Positions 2,336-9,611 of a stretch of 64,000 nucleotides of DNA are shown here, piece after piece. The notes beneath the pieces are model-generated. The model was not told the DNA's origin and did not search any database. It saw only the letters and a list, made by a program, of their open reading frames with translations. The DNA is from Candidatus Thiothrix sulfatifontis. GTDB taxonomy: Bacteria > Pseudomonadota > Gammaproteobacteria > Thiotrichales > Thiotrichaceae. The position numbers were made by a program, and so were the translations under genes. The stretch spans positions 1,054,001 through 1,118,000 of the forward strand of contig CP094685.1 in the NCBI GenBank assembly GCA_022828425.1. Reading direction: 5' to 3'. Position 1 is the first letter of the stretch. The number at the start of each line of letters is the position of its first letter.

Positions 2336-2499
2336 GGTGGTGACATTCCTCGCTAATGTGGGATAAAGCATTCTAAGCAAACGCCCCAACCCTTGACTAT
2401 CGGGTAAATGCCTGACGCCTAACAGACAGTTGGCGGATAGCCTCAGCTTCTGTTGTTACTGCATTCTAAGCGCATTATTAAATTCATGGAGTGTTTAAA

Positions 2500-2916
2500 A
2501 TGCAACGTCATCAATTATACGGCTGGCTTATCCTGCTAGGCAGTGTGTGCGGCAGCACCCCACTGTGGGCAGACACGCCGCAACAACTGTTGGACGGTTA
2601 CAAGGCGGAGGCACAAGCAGAAAGCCCCGATTTCAACGGCTTTGATCCGCAACGCGGCGAGCAATTCTTCAATAAGACGCACGCCAACGACTGGAGTTGT
2701 GCCACTTGCCACACCAGCAATCCTGCTGCCATGGGCAAACACGATAAAACCGCTAAAAGCATCGAGCCATTAGCACCGAGTGCGAATGCCGAGCGTTTCA
2801 CCAACCCGAAAAAGGTGGAAAAGTGGTTCAAACGCAATTGCAACGATGTGCTGGAGCGCACTTGTACGTCGCTGGAAAAAGGCGATGTGTTGACCTATTT
2901 ACTGAGCATTCAATGA
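2500..2916 (+). CDS. SHP-like monoheme cytochrome c (DUF1924)
   Basis: 138 aa; start at ATG 2500 with GGAG eight bases upstream, not the GTG at 2491. A signal peptide ends near LWADTPQ. There is a single heme site CATCH (in DWSCATCHTSNP), and a downstream helix ends NPKKVEKWFKRNC with CNDVLERTCTSLEKGDV. This layout matches DUF1924, the sphaeroides heme protein family of high-spin cytochromes that bind O2 or NO. In other proteobacteria SHP genes sit with a diheme cytochrome and a cytochrome b, exactly the next two genes here. A role in periplasmic electron transfer to a small ligand is known for the family; the substrate here is unknown. Confidence 0.85.
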   Translation: MQRHQLYGWLILLGSVCGSTPLWADTPQQLLDGYKAEAQAESPDFNGFDPQRGEQFFNKTHANDWSCATCHTSNPAAMGKHDKTAKSIEPLAPSANAERFTNPKKVEKWFKRNCNDVLERTCTSLEKGDVLTYLLSIQ

Positions 2917-2926
2917 GGGCATGACA

Positions 2927-3448
2927 ATGTTAAAAATCAAGCGTAACCGCGCGATCACTTGGGTGTTAGCGGCATTGCTATTCGGCAGCGTTGCCAGTTT
3001 GCCGGTGACGGCGGATGATGACGGCGATGAATACCGTGAAAAAGGCGGAGGCAACGCTACTTCGGCAGCGATGCCACCTTCTTGGAAAACCGAATGCGCT
3101 GAGTGTCACCTTGCGTACCCAGCGAAGTTATTACCCGCCAGTGGCTGGCGCGAAATCATGGGCAATCTTGATCAGCATTTCGGTACGGATGCGAGTTTGG
3201 ATGCCGCCACCATTGCCGAGATTTTGCCATTTTTGGAACAAAACGCCGGTTCTGAGCGCAAATACGCGGCGGCAGAAGGTAAATCGGCGTTGCGCATTAC
3301 TGAAACGCGCTGGTTTGTGCATGAGCATTACGACGAATTATCCCCTGCGGTATGGAAGCGGGTGAGCAGCCCGGCCAATTGTGCGGCTTGCCATACCACG
3401 GCGGAACAGGGCAATTACGACGAAGATTTTATCAAAATTCCACGTTAA
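2927..3448 (+). CDS. Diheme cytochrome c (DHC type)
   Basis: 173 aa. ATG 2927 is preferred over ATG 2921 because GAGGG lies at correct spacing only for the second codon. The N-terminal signal peptide is followed by an acidic stretch (DDDGDEYREK). Two heme-binding motifs are visible: CAECH about residue 47 and CAACH near the C-terminus, within about 25 residues of the end. This architecture matches the diheme cytochrome that is the redox partner of SHP. It lies 10 bases after the SHP stop and 12 bases before the cytochrome b gene, so the three form one operon. Confidence 0.85.
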   Translation: MLKIKRNRAITWVLAALLFGSVASLPVTADDDGDEYREKGGGNATSAAMPPSWKTECAECHLAYPAKLLPASGWREIMGNLDQHFGTDASLDAATIAEILPFLEQNAGSERKYAAAEGKSALRITETRWFVHEHYDELSPAVWKRVSSPANCAACHTTAEQGNYDEDFIKIPR

Positions 3449-3460
3449 GGAGCGTTCCCC

Positions 3461-4072
3461 ATGTTGCAACGTATTTTAGTGTGGGATGTGCCGACACGGG
3501 TGTTTCACTGGTCGTTAGCGTTGTCCTTTGCTGGGGCGTATGTGACGGCGGAATCGGAACGTTACCGCGATATTCATTTGGCCTTGGGTTATGTGTTGCT
3601 GGGGCTGTTGGTGTTTCGCTTGGTGTGGGGGCTGGTGGGAACGGCGTATGCGCGTTTCAGCGCGTTTACCTTTACGCCCTCGCAAGTGAAAGCGTATTTG
3701 CTGGGCTTGCTGAGCAAGCAGCCGCCGCATTACGTGGGGCATAACCCGGCGGGTGGGGTGGCGATTTTTGCGCTATTGGCGTTGGGCTTGCTGCTCAGTG
3801 TCAGCGGGCTGGGCTTGGAATGGGAAATTGGTGATGAAGATTTCATGGAGGAATTGCACGAAATCGCCGCGAATCTGATGTTGTTGGTGGTGCTGGTGCA
3901 CATTGCTGGGGTGTTGATTAGCAGTGTGTTGCATCGGGAAAATTTGGTGCGGGCGATGTTTACCGGCTACAAGCAGGCAGAGAATGCCGTGAGCATTGGT
4001 AGTGTTTACATTTGGCTGGGGGCGGTGATGGTGGTGGGAATCGGGGTGTTTTTTTTCGCTTACTTGGGATGA
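3461..4072 (+). CDS. Cytochrome b561-type membrane protein
   Basis: 203 aa with four hydrophobic segments. Conserved histidines lie in the helices: RVFHWSLAL, DIHLALGYVL, LHEIAANL and LVHIAGVL, with a further LHRENLVRAM typical of the Ni-Fe hydrogenase/b561 cytochrome family. It would take electrons from the quinol pool and hand them to the diheme cytochrome and SHP. AAGGAG lies eight bases before ATG. It is the third gene of the SHP-DHC-cytochrome b set. Confidence 0.87.
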   Translation: MLQRILVWDVPTRVFHWSLALSFAGAYVTAESERYRDIHLALGYVLLGLLVFRLVWGLVGTAYARFSAFTFTPSQVKAYLLGLLSKQPPHYVGHNPAGGVAIFALLALGLLLSVSGLGLEWEIGDEDFMEELHEIAANLMLLVVLVHIAGVLISSVLHRENLVRAMFTGYKQAENAVSIGSVYIWLGAVMVVGIGVFFFAYLG

Positions 4073-4162: not shown

Positions 4163-4302
4163 TGTGTTCGGAGTGATGTTGGGGTGTTTGCTGCTGCTGG
4201 ATGACGGATGTTGTATAATTTTTCTTGCGTATCATCCGGCTAAAAACGCCTTTAAGACGGTTCACCCAGATAATTGCCTACCCGCCAAGCTACACTACGG
4301 GT

Positions 4303-5514
4303 ATGCAACGACTCCAAGCCTTTAAATACGAACTCAAGCCCGACGGCGGACAACGGCACAATCTGCGCCGTTACGCGGGTTCGTGTCGGTTTGTTTACAA
4401 CAGGGCGTTAGCGTTGCAGCAAGCCAATCATGAGTTTGGTGAAAAATTCATCGGTTACGTGGCAATGGCAAAACACCTGACCGCATGGCGGAATGGCACA
4501 GAAACCTCTTGGCTGAAAGATTCCCCCGTCCATCCGCTGCAACACGCCCTGAAAGACCTCGATAAGGCGTACCAAAACTTCTTTGCCAAACGTGCTGATT
4601 TTCCCCGTTTCAAACGCAAGGGCAGCGCTGATAGCTTTCGCTACCCAGACCCCAAACAAATCAAGCTCGATCAGCGTAACAACCGTGTTTTCCTGCCTAA
4701 ACTGGGCTGGTTACGCTACCGCAACAGCCGCGAAGTGTTGGGGGAATTGCGCAATGTCACCGTGTCCGGTAAAAACGGCAAGTGGTACATTAGCATTCAA
4801 ACCCAGCGGGAAATAGAACAGCCCGTATCCACCGCTACCACGGCTATCGGCATTGACTTGGGCATAGCACGTTTCGCCACCTTCTCAGATGGCAGCTACA
4901 TTGCCCCGCTCAATATCTTAAAAACCCAACAAGCCAAGCTCGCCAAATACCAACGGCGCATGGCGCATAAGCAGAAATTCAGTAACAACTGGAAAAAGGC
5001 GAAAGCCAAAGTTCAAAAACTCCACACACAAATCGCCAATACCCGCCGCGATTTCCTGCACAAAGCGACGACCACGATCAGCCAAAACCACGCGCTCGTG
5101 TTCATCGAAGATTTGCAGGTAGGCAATATGTCCAGATCAGCGGCAGGCACGGCAGAAAACCCCGGCAAGAACGTGGCTGCAAAATCGGGCTTAAACAAAG
5201 CCATTCTCGACCAAGGCTGGGGTGAGTTCCGGCGGCAACTCGACTACAAAATGGCATGGAAGGGCGGCATGTTATTCGCCGTTCCCGCCCATTACACCAG
5301 CCAAGAATGCCCCGAATGCCATCACGTCTCGGCGAATAACCGCCAAACGCAAGCGAAGTTTGTGTGCCTGAAGTGTCACTATGAAAATCACGCCGATCAT
5401 GTCGGCGCGATCAATGTTAAAGAGCGGGGACACCGCTTGTTAGCCTGTGGAGATGGAGCATTACGCGCCTCGATGAAGCAGGAACTCGCCGAAGTAAGTC
5501 AGCTATCTAGCTGA
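4303..5514 (+). CDS. tnpB: TnpB, RNA-guided nuclease of an IS200/IS605-family element
   Basis: 403 aa from ATG 4303 (MQRLQAFKYEL); the frame is open further upstream but lacks TnpB sequence. All catalytic features are intact: RuvC-I Asp185 in GIDLG, RuvC-II Glu269 in FIEDLQV, and RuvC-III Asp365 in NHADHVGAINV. The four zinc-finger cysteines are 336, 339, 355 and 358. TnpB proteins are guided by an RNA transcribed from the element's right end and cut the vacated donor site. No TnpA transposase gene is present beside it, so the element would need TnpA in trans. It sits between the cytochrome b gene and the DUF2202 genes. Confidence 0.93.
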   Translation: MQRLQAFKYELKPDGGQRHNLRRYAGSCRFVYNRALALQQANHEFGEKFIGYVAMAKHLTAWRNGTETSWLKDSPVHPLQHALKDLDKAYQNFFAKRADFPRFKRKGSADSFRYPDPKQIKLDQRNNRVFLPKLGWLRYRNSREVLGELRNVTVSGKNGKWYISIQTQREIEQPVSTATTAIGIDLGIARFATFSDGSYIAPLNILKTQQAKLAKYQRRMAHKQKFSNNWKKAKAKVQKLHTQIANTRRDFLHKATTTISQNHALVFIEDLQVGNMSRSAAGTAENPGKNVAAKSGLNKAILDQGWGEFRRQLDYKMAWKGGMLFAVPAHYTSQECPECHHVSANNRQTQAKFVCLKCHYENHADHVGAINVKERGHRLLACGDGALRASMKQELAEVSQLSS

Positions 5515-5556
5515 ATGCAGTAGGAATCCCCTTCCTTTAGGGAGGGGAGGATGTCA
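5515..5556 (+). ncRNA. Probable 3' end of the TnpB guide RNA (omega RNA) scaffold
   Basis: The G-rich block GGAGGGGAGGATGTCAAGG directly after the tnpB stop includes the right copy of the flanking repeat (5534-5552). In this family the scaffold covers the end of tnpB and the element's right end, and the guide is the DNA just beyond. If so, the guide would begin close to 5556-5558. Position and end are inference. Confidence 0.4.
5534..5552 (+). repeat. Right copy of the 19-bp repeat flanking tnpB
   Basis: It matches 4122-4140 at 17 of 19 positions in the same orientation. It starts 19 bases after the tnpB stop. Confidence 0.6.
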
Positions 5557-5579
5557 AGGCGGATACCTTCGCTTAATTT

Positions 5580-5596
5580 TTTCAGCTTCATTTCAG
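5580..5596 (+). promoter_or_regulatory. TTTCAG direct-repeat operator upstream of the first DUF2202 gene
   Basis: Two TTTCAG half-sites (5580-5585, 5591-5596) have an 11-bp period, as usual for OmpR/PhoB-family response regulators. The same 17-base block occurs at 7169-7185 upstream of the lipoprotein gene. The OmpR-type regulator encoded at 7906 is the obvious candidate binder. This is inference from spacing and location. Confidence 0.6.
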
Positions 5597-5644
5597 ATAA
5601 GCCGGTTAGTCTACACGCATAAATTAATTGTTTGGAGACTCACC

Positions 5645-6424
5645 ATGAAGACCATAAACCTAACCCGTCACACTGTCTTGGCCTGCGCCGTAACCTTGTT
5701 AATGGGTTGCGGCAGCAGCGGCACTGCTGATACGGCTGCACTGACCACCACAGCGGTTACGACTGCGGCTATTACGGCAGCAGCATCTGTTGCCGACACA
5801 GTAACAGCCAGCGCTACCGTTGCGGATGATGTTACTGGCAGCGTTGCGGATACTACGACTACCGCGACGACTACCAGCACTGCTACCACGCTGACAGCCG
5901 ACGAAACCGCCACGCTGCTATTCGTGCGCGAAGAAGAAAAGCTGGCACGCGACGTTTACCTCACGCTCTTCAACAAGTGGGGTACTAAAACTTTCCAAAA
6001 CATCGCCCTCAACAGCGAACAGCAACACATGGATGTGATGGGAACGCTGGTTGATACCTACAACCTGCAAGATCCCGTACTGACCGACACCATTGGCGCA
6101 TTCACTGACCCGGTATTGCTGGGGCTGTATCAAGATTTGGTCATGCGTGGCTCAACCTCGCAGAATGACGGTTTGCTTGTGGGCGGTTTCATCGAAGAAT
6201 TCGACATTAACGATTTGCAAGAAGCCATCGACGAAGCCAACGCTGGCAGCAAACCCGCCGATATTATTGTCGCCTACACCAACTTGATGTGCGGTTCACG
6301 CAACCATTTGCGCTCATTCGTGGGGCAAATTGAGAAAAACGGCGTGGATTACCAAGCGCAAGTCATTCCACAAGCCACCGTCGATGCGATTGTAAACAGC
6401 CCTGAAGAACAATGTGGCAAATAA
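5645..6424 (+). CDS. DUF2202 ferritin-like lipoprotein
   Basis: 259 aa. The signal peptide has a lipobox (LLMGC), so it is probably lipid-anchored. A linker of about 65 residues made almost only of Thr, Ala, Val and Ser follows, then a DUF2202 domain (about residues 90-255). Conserved motifs are FVREEEKLARDVY, SEQQHMDV, FIEEFDINDLQEA and GSRNHLRSF. The Glu/His pattern fits the four-helix ferritin-like fold that binds a di-metal centre; the cellular role of DUF2202 is not established. A second DUF2202 gene begins 29 bases downstream, so the two form an operon. A TTTCAG repeat operator lies about 50 bases upstream of the start. Confidence 0.85.
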   Translation: MKTINLTRHTVLACAVTLLMGCGSSGTADTAALTTTAVTTAAITAAASVADTVTASATVADDVTGSVADTTTTATTTSTATTLTADETATLLFVREEEKLARDVYLTLFNKWGTKTFQNIALNSEQQHMDVMGTLVDTYNLQDPVLTDTIGAFTDPVLLGLYQDLVMRGSTSQNDGLLVGGFIEEFDINDLQEAIDEANAGSKPADIIVAYTNLMCGSRNHLRSFVGQIEKNGVDYQAQVIPQATVDAIVNSPEEQCGK

Positions 6425-6453
6425 CTTCATCATAAATACAAGGAGATACTCCC

Positions 6454-7122
6454 ATGACTTTACGTAAAACACTCATCGCAGGCATGATTGCCATGACTTG
6501 CACAGGTCTGCTGACCACGCCCACGTTTGCCAAAGGCAACGGGCAGCAGCAAGCACCCGTATTGAGCGCTGCTGAAACCCAATCCCTGCGTTTCATGCGC
6601 GAGGAAGAAAAATTGGCACGCGATGCATACATCAGTCTGTATCAGCAATGGCAATTGCCAGTGTTTAACAATATTTCGCAATCTGAACAGCAACATACCG
6701 ATCGCGTTAAAGCCTTGCTGCAAACCTACCGGATTGCTGACCCTGTGACCAATGATGCTGTTGGCGTGTTCCAGAATGTGGATTTGGCAGCTTTGTACGC
6801 AACGCTAATGGCGCGTGGGCAAACCTCTGCATTGGATGCGCTGTATGTTGGTGCGTTGATTGAGGAAGTGGATATTGTGGACTTGCAAAAATCCATGCGT
6901 GAAACCACTCGCCCCGATCTTCTCAACACTTACGATAATTTAATGCGAGCGTCACGCAACCACCTGCGAGCGTTTGTTAAGCAGATTCAGCGCCAAGGTG
7001 TGAAGTATGTGGCGCAAACCATGCCACAAGCGGAAGTTGACGCGATCATCAATAGCCCGAACGAGCGTGGGCAAGGTGGTGGCGGACAAGGCGGCGGACG
7101 TGGGCAACGTCGCGGGATGTAA
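6454..7122 (+). CDS. Secreted DUF2202 ferritin-like protein
   Basis: 222 aa. A cleavable signal peptide (MTLRKTLIAGMIAMTC..., cleavage near TFAKG) has no lipobox, so the product is probably soluble in the periplasm. The DUF2202 domain covers about residues 35-200 with FMREEEKLARDAY, SEQQHTDRV, LIEEVDIVDLQKS and ASRNHLRAF. The C-terminus is a Gly/Gln/Arg tail (GQGGGGQGGGRGQRRG). GGAG lies at the expected distance before ATG. It is a paralogue of the preceding lipoprotein and is transcribed with it. Confidence 0.86.
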   Translation: MTLRKTLIAGMIAMTCTGLLTTPTFAKGNGQQQAPVLSAAETQSLRFMREEEKLARDAYISLYQQWQLPVFNNISQSEQQHTDRVKALLQTYRIADPVTNDAVGVFQNVDLAALYATLMARGQTSALDALYVGALIEEVDIVDLQKSMRETTRPDLLNTYDNLMRASRNHLRAFVKQIQRQGVKYVAQTMPQAEVDAIINSPNERGQGGGGQGGGRGQRRGM

Positions 7123-7168
7123 AATGACCAGCCTGTGGCGCTTATTTTCTGCTTTGGGTGGATAGATT

Positions 7169-7185
7169 TTTCAGCTTCATTTCAG
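7169..7185 (+). promoter_or_regulatory. Second TTTCAG direct-repeat operator
   Basis: Half-sites at 7169-7174 and 7180-7185 with the identical CTTCA spacer seen at 5580-5596; GAGCCG follows just as AGCCGG does at the first site. It lies about 56 bases before the start of the lipoprotein gene. Confidence 0.6.
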
Positions 7186-7241
7186 GTTGAGCCGTTACAG
7201 TTTTGCGCTTTTCGTAACACTAAATAATGGAATTCTTCAGC

Positions 7242-7889
7242 ATGAAATTGAAAAAGAATATGGCGGCAGGGTATGTGGTCACGTTGTGTTCTCTACTAGC
7301 ACTCGCTGGTTGTGGTGGTGGCAGCGGCAGCGGCAGCAATAGCACCGCTACGGGCGGTGATGGCGGCGCACCCACAGAGTCTTACATTGACTATCTTGCC
7401 AGCAATCATGCGGCTTACACCAACACGGGCACGACGGAAAATCCGAGTGCCCGTTTTCAAGACACCAGTTACTCCTTGTCATGGTTGATTGCCACGCAAA
7501 CAGCAGAACAAGCTGAAAACTTGAAAAAGCACATCGAATTCATGGGGACGGCAATGACGAATGGCGGCAATCCCCGCGAGTGGGATAAGCTGTTTTTAGC
7601 CGATGCCTACATGAAAACCGAACACCGCTACGAAACGCGCGTGTCGGTTTCTGGGTATAATGTCTTGGTTGAAAAATTCGCTACCGATGCGTGCGCTTAT
7701 CAGCTCTTAAAAGCTCATGCGACAGGCGTCAGTGGCAAGTTTTTTGAAGGCAATATCAAAGTGGATTTCAGCCCACTCGCCGAAGCGGTCATTGCCAGTG
7801 AAGCGTGCGCGATCGACCGCAGTGCGATCGAGACGTATATTGCGGCGCGGTTGAAGCCCGTTCCCAAAGGTATTCAGAAAAACACGTAA
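7242..7889 (+). CDS. Hypothetical lipoprotein
   Basis: 215 aa from ATG 7242 (MKLKKNMAAG); an in-frame ATG at 7227 is less likely because GGAA is placed for the second. The lipobox LALAGC is followed by a Gly/Ser linker. The mature part has helices and two cysteine pairs (TDACAYQLL, SEACAIDRS). No family is recognised. It lies 16 bases before the response-regulator gene, and a TTTCAG operator precedes it. It may therefore be an accessory or sensor-modulating protein co-transcribed with the two-component system; that is inference. Confidence 0.75.
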   Translation: MKLKKNMAAGYVVTLCSLLALAGCGGGSGSGSNSTATGGDGGAPTESYIDYLASNHAAYTNTGTTENPSARFQDTSYSLSWLIATQTAEQAENLKKHIEFMGTAMTNGGNPREWDKLFLADAYMKTEHRYETRVSVSGYNVLVEKFATDACAYQLLKAHATGVSGKFFEGNIKVDFSPLAEAVIASEACAIDRSAIETYIAARLKPVPKGIQKNT

Positions 7890-7905: not shown

Positions 7906-8595
7906 ATGCGCTTATTACTGGTGGAAGACGACACCGAACTCAGCAGCAGTTTGCACACGCGCTTAAAACGTGAAGGCTTCGCGGTGGACATCGCCAGTAA
8001 CGGTGTGGATGGCGAATTCATGGGCGACGAAACGCCTTACGATGCGGTGATTCTTGACCTCGGCTTGCCGCAACGCAGCGGGCTGGCGGTGTTGCAACAC
8101 TGGCGGCAGCGCGGCAATCGCGTGCCGGTGATTATTCTCACCGCCCGCGATGCCTGGCACGAACGGGTGGACGGTTTCAAAGCCGGGGCAGACGATTACC
8201 TCGGCAAGCCGTTTCATTTTGAGGAATTGCTGGTGCGGGTGCAGGCGTTGATTCGCCGTAATTTGCAAGCGGCAGTTCCCGACCAAAAGTTGCATTGCTG
8301 CGGCTTGCAATTGGATGAGGCACATCAGCAAGTCACCACGCCAGACGGTGAAGTCTTCGAGTTGACGGGGACAGAATTTCGCCTGTTGCGCTATTTTATG
8401 TTGCACCCCGGTCGGATTCTTACCAAGTCACGTTTAACCGAACACGTTTACGAGCAAGATTTTGACCGTGATAGCAATGTGATCGAAGTGTATGTGCGCC
8501 ATTTGCGCCGCAAGTTGGGGGATTGGCGCATCCAAACGCGGCGCGGGCAGGGGTATATTTTCATCGACCCCGACAAGCCGGAGCTGCCCTTATGA
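7906..8595 (+). CDS. OmpR/PhoB-family response regulator
   Basis: 229 aa. The receiver domain has acidic residues VEDD near the N-terminus, the phosphoacceptor Asp51 in VILDLGLP and the lysine in YLGKPFHFEEL. The C-terminal winged helix (EFRLLRYFMLHPGRILTKSRL ... VYVRHLRRKLG) is of the QseB/PhoP type. AGGAAA lies before ATG. The stop overlaps the kinase start (ATGA). The TTTCAG repeats at 5580 and 7169 have the 11-bp period preferred by this family, so it probably controls the DUF2202 operon and its own transcription unit. Confidence 0.92.
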   Translation: MRLLLVEDDTELSSSLHTRLKREGFAVDIASNGVDGEFMGDETPYDAVILDLGLPQRSGLAVLQHWRQRGNRVPVIILTARDAWHERVDGFKAGADDYLGKPFHFEELLVRVQALIRRNLQAAVPDQKLHCCGLQLDEAHQQVTTPDGEVFELTGTEFRLLRYFMLHPGRILTKSRLTEHVYEQDFDRDSNVIEVYVRHLRRKLGDWRIQTRRGQGYIFIDPDKPELPL

Positions 8596-9611
8596 AGTCG
8601 TTGGAACGTCAGTTGCAGGTTAATCTTGCGATTATTTTGGTGTTGGTGATGGCGCTGATTTGGGGCGTGGGGATGGCGTTGCCCTGGTTTTTTGAAGGAA
8701 CGCAAAATGTGCATTCGGCAGGGGTGGTGTTTGCGCCAGACGCGGCTCAACACCGTCCACAGCGTTTCAAGTGGTTATTTCCGTTATTGGCAGCGGCGGG
8801 GATTGCATTGATTTTGGTGATTCAAGGCATTGTTATTCGTCGGACTTTTCAGCGTTTGGATTACATTCGTGCGGAACTGCAACAGCTTGATGCGGGCGCT
8901 ATCAATAAGCTCAATGAAGCCGTGCCTGCGGAAATTTACCCGATTATCAAAGAGTTCAATCATTTATTGAGCTTGATGCAGGAGCGTTTGGAACGTTCCC
9001 GCAATGCGTTAGGCAATCTGGCGCACGCGCTGAAAACCCCGCTCAATTTACTCACGCAACACCTCGATGCTGACATATCAGCGAGCAGCCATCAGCAGGC
9101 GCAATTACAAGCCGAACGCATCCGCCAATTGACTGAGCGTGAACTTAAACGTGCGCGTATGGCAGGTCTTGGTAATACCACGCAACGCTTTGACCCGCGT
9201 GTGGAATTGCCCGTGCTGGTGGAGGTGTTGGCGCAGGTACACCACAAATCCCCGCGCTGCATTACGCTGGACATTGCCCCGACGATTACCCGTTTCGGCG
9301 ATCGCGAAGACATGCTGGAATTGCTGGGAAACTTGCTGGATAACGCCTGCAAATGGGCGCAACAACAGGTGCGTTGCCAGATCAGCCGTGTCGCAGGCAA
9401 GGTACACATTAGCGTGGAAGACGATGGCAACGGGCGCACCGAGGCAGAATTACAGCAAATGACGGCACGCGGGGTGCGGCTGGATGAAAGCGTTGAAGGC
9501 CACGGGTTGGGGCTGTCGATTTGCAAAGACATTACCAAATTGTACGGTGGCACACTGGTGTTTGCGCGTTCCACGCAACTGGGTGGCTTGCGCGTAACGG
9601 TTACGTTTTAA
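8592..9611 (+). CDS. Membrane sensor histidine kinase, PhoQ-like
   Basis: 339 aa from ATG 8592, which overlaps the regulator stop by four bases. TM1 is about residues 10-32 and TM2 about 62-83, with a very short periplasmic loop of roughly 30 residues between. The H-box is NLAHALKTPL with His145, the variant seen in PhoQ-type kinases. The ATP-binding domain has the N-box ELLGNLLDNACKWA, VEDDGNG and GHGLGLSICK. The short loop argues against a large ligand domain. It is the partner of the regulator at 7906. Confidence 0.9.
   Translation: MKSLERQLQVNLAIILVLVMALIWGVGMALPWFFEGTQNVHSAGVVFAPDAAQHRPQRFKWLFPLLAAAGIALILVIQGIVIRRTFQRLDYIRAELQQLDAGAINKLNEAVPAEIYPIIKEFNHLLSLMQERLERSRNALGNLAHALKTPLNLLTQHLDADISASSHQQAQLQAERIRQLTERELKRARMAGLGNTTQRFDPRVELPVLVEVLAQVHHKSPRCITLDIAPTITRFGDREDMLELLGNLLDNACKWAQQQVRCQISRVAGKVHISVEDDGNGRTEAELQQMTARGVRLDESVEGHGLGLSICKDITKLYGGTLVFARSTQLGGLRVTVTF

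Follow-up and report, generated by a model that had tools for sequence, protein, structure and literature searches.

Predicted operators place ferritin-like DUF2202 genes of Thiothrix under a probable rewired relative of the PepSY/RR/SK1 two-component systems

Introduction

Upstream of a two-component system in Candidatus Thiothrix sulfatifontis lie two genes for ferritin-like proteins of the DUF2202 family, a name that we did not find in 5.39 million open papers and for which we found no assigned role. What controls these genes, and is it the neighbouring regulator? An initial annotation, made from the DNA alone, had noticed the same short block in front of the DUF2202 genes and in front of the unit that leads into the regulator gene, and proposed that the two copies are operators through which a PhoQ-like kinase with a short periplasmic loop controls secreted ferritin-like proteins. 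We followed this up in the 64,000-nucleotide stretch of DNA in question (the window; positions 1,054,001–1,118,000 of a single-contig 3.69 Mb genome), in the rest of that genome, in 16 genomes of the genus and in 369 genomes of Gammaproteobacteria.

Results

Two identical blocks in front of two transcription units

In order of position, the window contains an SHP operon, a TnpB element, operator 1, the pair of DUF2202 genes, operator 2 and the genes for a lipoprotein, a response regulator and a histidine kinase. The features are as follows (window coordinates).

2491–4072, + strand: SHP operon, from profile matches (DUF1924 SHP 2491–2916, diheme cytochrome c 2921–3448, cytochrome b 3461–4072)
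5578–5596, + strand: predicted operator 1, TTTTTCAGCTTCATTTCAG, two TTTCAG half-sites 11 bases apart; footprint in 14/14 regulator-bearing genus genomes
5607–5612, + strand: predicted −10 element TAGTCT, 10 bases 3′ of operator 1; spacing kept in 22/23 genus sites
5645–6424, + strand: DUF2202 gene a, 259 aa, ferritin-like, predicted lipoprotein (lipobox by eye); PF09968, 173 bits
6454–7122, + strand: DUF2202 gene b, 222 aa, ferritin-like, predicted signal peptide (by eye); PF09968, 187 bits; PDB 3q4o (MJ0754), E 9e-50
7167–7185, + strand: predicted operator 2, the same as operator 1 over 19 bases
7196–7201, + strand: predicted −10 element TACAGT, 10 bases 3′ of operator 2
7227–7889 (start 7227 or 7242), + strand: lipoprotein gene with no family assigned; no Pfam match, found by alignment in six other genus genomes
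7906–8595, + strand: OmpR/PhoB-family response regulator (Pfam Response_reg and Trans_reg_C), proposed binder of both operators
8592–9611, + strand: histidine kinase, 339 aa, without the ~100 aa periplasmic domain of its relatives

The 17-base block TTTCAGCTTCATTTCAG is present on the + strand at both places where it had first been described, 5580–5596 and 7169–7185, and the identity extends to 19 bases, TTTTTCAGCTTCATTTCAG (5578–5596 and 7167–7185). Its half-sites start 11 bases apart in both copies, which bears out the proposed phasing. The first copy lies 5′ of the DUF2202 genes and the second 5′ of the lipoprotein-regulator unit, again as originally described. Operator 1 is 65 bases from the DUF2202 start codon, operator 2 is 58 or 73 bases from the lipoprotein start (there are two candidate ATGs), and the regulator gene starts 16 bases past the lipoprotein stop. 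Each copy is followed exactly 10 bases downstream by a −10 element of the form TANNNT, and neither has a −35 box. Judged by these −10 elements, transcription would start near 5619 and 7208. An AlphaFold model of the lipoprotein, built on seven close sequences, had a mean pLDDT of 38, too poor for a fold search.

The TnpB gene (4225–5514, NCBIfam guided_TnpB) sits between the cytochrome b gene and operator 1. The GC-rich hairpin end of its element (4225–5577 region) stops ~20–25 bases 5′ of operator 1 and abuts ADTFA-stop, the C-terminal end encoded by an SQR/FCSD-like gene, which occupies the same place in another genus genome, G009.

Searching the whole genome for TTTCAG-N5-TTTCAG, as the initial annotation had suggested, gave five exact matches in 3.69 Mb and none for the reversed pattern. 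With up to one mismatch there were 34 places (reversed control, 9), and 30 of these were examined: 26 fall inside open frames, two are intergenic without a −10 element and two are the window sites. Of the 30 of 34, the window sites alone thus combine an intergenic position with TANNNT at a distance of 10 bases, and the scatter over many unrelated genes that would have spoken against an operator was not seen. Within the window, up to two mismatches gave 18 matches against 5.75 expected. Since imperfect copies are frequent and mostly lie inside genes, TTTCAG half-sites alone are not specific; they are a weak signal, and the −10 spacing and the comparison with other genomes therefore matter. No operator with up to two mismatches was found 5′ of the SHP operon (5′ of 2491).

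The block and the regulator occur together in the genus

A regulator of at least 75% identity is encoded in 14 of the 16 genus genomes, the present one included, and is absent from G003 and G014. The pattern TTTCAGNTTNNTTTCAG matched 23 times, in these 14 genomes and no others, and its reversed control not at all, so that blocks accompany the regulator in 14/14 genomes that have it and 0/2 that lack it, although the genomes are related to one another and such counts are not independent. By place, 14 matches precede a DUF2202 gene (one per genome), seven precede the lipoprotein gene, one stands 5′ of a small frame in an additional DUF2202 locus, that of G002, and one lies elsewhere (G001:1356323). 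TANNNT follows at exactly N10 in 22 of the 23 sites, against a background of 0.8% per position; the lone exception is the stray G001 site. G003 has a DUF2202 gene, and there both regulator and site are absent. Distant extra DUF2202 copies in G013 and G005 are likewise without one. The Thiothrix lacustris DSM 21227 record NZ_JHYQ01000013.1 and G011 (contig 10) carry the pair of sites as well.

The block was also recovered de novo. When all 6-mer/N(0–20)/6-mer dyads were ranked in the 200 bases 5′ of 15 DUF2202 transcription units from the 14 genomes, TTTCAG-N5-TTTCAG came top, in 15/15 promoters, whereas the best dyad in matching coding stretches reached 6/15. In a subset of diverged promoters that we selected ourselves, the block again ranked first, in 10/10, with variable flanks. 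These results bear on whether the block might be nothing but a conserved core-promoter or repeat element that binds no regulator. It does adjoin the −10 element, and identical copies could stem from duplication. Yet it is unlike a −35 box, its flanks have diverged, and it is lost together with the regulator and recurs in distant genera (below), all of which makes that explanation hardly credible.

Gene content around the regulator varies in the genus. EF-hand proteins replace the lipoprotein directly 5′ of the regulator in G002 (L113:8333-9043) and G006 (L118:10716-11183), and a cytochrome c or hydrogenase-like protein stands beside the regulator in some other genomes. At L116:3304-4494, a frame with a match to the [NiFe]-hydrogenase small subunit, and a weak one to cytochrome c, lies between the lipoprotein and regulator genes; L124:8166-9356 is its counterpart in another genus genome, to judge only by place and length. 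In G002 (L113:439-3763), the neighbour of the cytochrome b gene is a different two-component pair (regulator 44% and kinase 29% identical), which looks like a handover of the SHP operon to another system in some members of the genus.

The same predicted operator across Gammaproteobacteria

In the 369 gammaproteobacterial genomes, TTTCAG-N5-TTTCAG-N10-TANNNT occurs at 48 sites in 39 genomes, against five sites for the reversed pattern. All except the window's own two were inspected. Module genes (cytochrome b, SHP, diheme cytochrome c, PepSY and regulator, or an RND pump) lie downstream on the same strand at 33 of these 46 sites, a raw count under a lenient criterion by which cytochrome b alone or two of three pump genes sufficed; the other 13 have no module gene downstream. 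In the commonest arrangement, cytochrome b follows the site at about 60 bases, and SHP, diheme cytochrome c, PepSY, regulator and kinase come after it. SHP or diheme cytochrome c is missing from some of the cytochrome operons with the site (examples of the type are L292, L313, L320 and L133). Operons for outer-membrane/HlyD/RND pumps of the metal type form the other common class of target and often adjoin the regulator (L307, L325, L331, L332, L132).

A regulator of at least 56% identity, a cut chosen after viewing the regulator list, is encoded in 32 of 39 genomes with the site and 46 of 330 without it (Fisher p 3e-18, kinship ignored). The pairing is not complete: seven of the 39 site genomes lack such a regulator, and 46 of the 78 regulator genomes lack the strict site. 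Twenty of these 46 were inspected, taken from the top of the regulator list (G240, whose contig starts inside the operon, was left out), and yielded 11 near-sites with a −10 element at N10 in nine genomes, against a control of zero; the other 11 of the 20 loci had no near-site with a −10 element. Among the matches listed for named genomes, module genes accompany 19/35 gammaproteobacterial sites and 2/85 others; the loci listed, at least 118, were split by record title into 34 gammaproteobacterial and 84 other loci, several of which end before a module would be visible.

A further group of sites lies outside the Proteobacterial lineage of the window: in 9 of 22 clostridial loci inspected (L179, L186, L187, L189, L201, L203, L231, L233 and L248), TTTCAG-N5-TTTCAG-N10-TANNNT stands 45–150 bases 5′ of genes that by eye encode OmpR-like regulators. 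As Clostridia have the box 5′ of other OmpR-family genes, it is not unique to the PepSY/RR/SK1-type regulator family. This counts towards the view that the box belongs to another OmpR-family regulator, for instance a QseB-like one of ~45% identity such as lies nearby in several relatives, and that the regulator at 7906 is incidental. Second regulators of ~45% identity are indeed encoded 6–16 kb away in G002, G006, G007, G010, G011 and G015, and relatives of this kind could compete for the box. However, G014 encodes a second regulator yet lacks both the first one and the box, and across the class the box stands directly 5′ of operons that contain the 7906-type regulator family. We therefore consider a different binder improbable and retain the regulator at 7906 as the likely one.

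Two further observations concern these loci. In G049, four TTTCAG-like half-sites with an 11-base period (L133:3022-3060) lie ~500 bases 5′ of the promoter-proximal site of the SHP operon. In G007, G009, G044 and G307 (L119:3623-4909, L121:10786-12072, L132:3353-4615 and L333), a gene for an SQR/FCSD-like flavoprotein is found next to either the operator or the PepSY-regulator genes.

A probable relative of the PepSY/RR/SK1 systems that has lost its sensor domain

The regulator consists of a receiver and a winged-helix domain, and its predicted site is a direct repeat in the 10–11 base period of the OmpR/PhoB family. It is ~60–72% identical to the regulators of cytochrome-PepSY-RR-HK operons. 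The available excerpts of Meyer et al. 2010 (PMC2909971) describe a gene set Orf1/RR/SK1 that adjoins SHP operons, CzcABC pumps that in Allochromatium neighbour these regulatory genes, and the periplasmic motifs SGVYWQ and RSRSLWD of SK1. The PepSY-regulator-kinase set found here fits Orf1/RR/SK1 as excerpted there, an identification from gene order and the two motifs. The small gene of the set is PepSY by Pfam in G049 and G029 and falls just under the cut-off in G044 (23 vs 24 bits). These excerpts describe no operator for the family, and we found no description of a TTTCAG operator of the SHP-associated family in the open-licence literature.

Six long kinases (440–464 aa; two from G029 and one each from G049, G044, G034 and G054) carry variants of both SK1 motifs when aligned. 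The region with these motifs is absent from all 12 Thiothrix kinases aligned (336–345 aa), and the short loop that remains shows no conservation from species to species. All 12 retain the kinase core and its H-box. Because ~100 residues of SK1 region are missing relative to the long kinases, the short periplasmic loop of Thiothrix is best read as a lineage-specific loss of the sensor domain. The PhoQ-like kinase with a short loop of the initial annotation thus stands as to the loop, which results from deletion of the sensor domain; the likeness to PhoQ is only distant (153 bits against a cut-off of 497). PepSY gave no match in the window's own genome; three of the 16 genus genomes have one, none within the regulator loci examined.

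The same promoter block together with the same regulator family indicates that the Thiothrix regulator is a relative of the PepSY/RR/SK1 systems and that the block is probably their operator. Such losses might also mean that the truncated Thiothrix kinase is a constitutive or phosphatase-only remnant, with DUF2202 under house-keeping control via a decaying system. That account draws on the loss of both sensor domain and PepSY and on the unconserved loop; set against it are the conservation of regulator, operators and −10 spacing in 14/14 genomes with the system and the intact kinase core with H-box in the 12 kinases aligned. We judge decay unlikely and favour a rewired, working system.

DUF2202 genes as targets

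Both DUF2202 proteins match PF09968 far above the Pfam gathering score of 22 (173 bits for a, 187 for b). The ligand motifs, of the E/EXXH type, read REEEKLARD, SEQQH, IEEFDI and SRNHLR in protein a; in the two proteins the motifs are at residues 95, 124, 183, 218 and 49, 77, 136, 167. A solved homologue is MJ0754 (PDB 3q4n, 3q4o, 3q4q, 3q4r), which we take to be ferritin-like and which comes from an archaeon, unlike the Thiothrix proteins. Its Glu/His motifs align with those of protein b, which matches 3q4o at E 9e-50, and protein a has the same motifs.

Outside the genus, the box stands 5′ of DUF2202 in G029 and G022, with one mismatch each and the −10 element at 10 bases. Three tandem half-sites precede DUF2202 in G197, there without TANNNT at 10 bases, on the same contig as regulator and kinase genes, and among the matches listed a Thiotrichaceae MAG (L290) has the box 5′ of a DUF2202-HlyD-RND operon. 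No box precedes the majority of the other DUF2202 genes examined outside the genus. DUF2202 is encoded in 22 of the 369 class genomes, and the regulator in 15 of these 22 against 78/369 overall (p 1e-6).

Discussion

Comparison between genomes supports the block as an operator, its spacing to the −10 element, its co-occurrence with the regulator and the loss of the kinase domain. The proposal that these blocks link both transcription units, DUF2202 and lipoprotein-regulator-kinase, to the two-component system gains support from the co-occurrence, the N10 spacing and the class-wide pairing of regulator and block. Taken as a whole, the best explanation, to which we give a probability of roughly 0.8 on this sequence comparison, is that the blocks are operators of the regulator encoded at 7906, that they serve class II activation, and that the system is a rewired derivative of PepSY/RR/SK1.

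The mechanism that we infer is as follows. The kinase (8592) would phosphorylate the regulator (7906), which would then bind TTTCAG-N5-TTTCAG as a head-to-tail dimer. The operator would take the place of the −35 box, and RNA polymerase would be recruited to the −10 element 10 bases downstream, as in class II activation. Two targets are predicted: the two genes for secreted ferritin-like DUF2202 proteins, and the lipoprotein-regulator-kinase unit, whose activation would amount to positive autoregulation. Elsewhere, the PepSY/RR/SK1 lineage would activate cytochrome b-SHP-DHC operons and RND pumps via the same operator; in Thiothrix, the operator would have been kept, the PepSY protein and the kinase periplasmic domain lost, and the target moved from the SHP operon to DUF2202.

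Binding, activation and the direction of the effect are inferred parts of this scheme. A site that adjoins the −10 element could instead block polymerase, and the regulator might repress at both sites or act as a mixed regulator. The absence of a −35 box and a geometry that is that of BqsR, an activator in the available part of its description (PMC4682146), argue otherwise, and repression seems improbable to us; activation is the preferred reading.

Despite the loss of the sensing domain from its sensor, the Thiothrix pair seems to govern secreted ferritin-like proteins. The presence of pumps, PepSY proteins, EF-hand proteins and ferritin-like targets leads us to suspect metal or redox stress of the cell envelope, a role to which we give an even chance at best. 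More speculatively, the DUF2202 proteins and the operon lipoprotein might act as a metal-loaded external sensor with feedback on the kinase, a storage-type protein having taken the place of the sensor domain; we think this rather unlikely. With DUF2202 under the predicted operator of a regulator family of SHP cytochromes and RND pumps, these proteins would have, for the first time, a context open to test, namely metal or redox stress of the envelope. Across Gammaproteobacteria, the operator also offers a means to delimit the regulon of this poorly characterised signalling family.

Comparison with known systems

Several two-component systems resemble the Thiothrix pair in part. The CarR chain 8gc6, presumably a Pseudomonas protein, is among the nearest solved structures to the regulator. 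According to the available text on BqsR of Pseudomonas aeruginosa (PMC4682146), it binds TTAAG-N6-TTAAG, one pentamer of which is common to BqsR and RNA polymerase, and activates. As described there, the site of BqsRS/CarRS has the same layout as the Thiothrix TTCAG-N6-TTCAG, with one base per half-site different, and the Thiothrix sites resemble it in their 11-base direct repeat, the lack of a −35 box and the position of the −10 element at 10 bases. BqsS is described as sensing Fe2+ through a periplasmic ExxE (PMC12666569, in the part available). The Thiothrix kinase loop has no ExxE, so that, as far as that account goes, the BqsS signal is not transferable by analogy. With TTCAG rather than TTAAG as half-site and no ExxE in the loop, membership of BqsRS was rejected.

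Membership of PhoPQ was likewise rejected on NCBIfam cut-offs (PhoQ 153 vs 497 bits, PhoP 154 vs 336 bits): the kinase core is nearest PhoQ among the NCBIfam models, but it has no PhoQ sensor domain, and the PmrA, RppA and QseB models score above PhoP for the regulator. SsoR of Shewanella, as far as its available description goes, is unrelated in logic, and the excerpts of a Shewanella fitness paper held nothing on a Thiothrix-type system. For FeuPQ, a further candidate, no operator was found among the literature matches listed. UzcRS of Caulobacter is likened here by description: in the available excerpts (PMC8963506) it responds to metals and its targets are for the most part secreted proteins and pumps, UipA is a PepSY protein that binds metal, and the UzcR motif is CATTAC-N6-TTAA.

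The closest relatives remain the PepSY/RR/SK1 systems of SHP operons. Thiothrix shares with them the regulator subfamily and TTTCAG-N5-TTTCAG-N10-TANNNT, and has an SHP operon just upstream in the window. It differs in that its own genome has no PepSY gene, the periplasmic domain that bears the SK1 motifs is absent from its kinase, and its SHP operon is without the operator, the predicted targets being the DUF2202 proteins and the lipoprotein instead. Loss of a sensor domain with retention of the operator would make this a clear case of regulatory rewiring.
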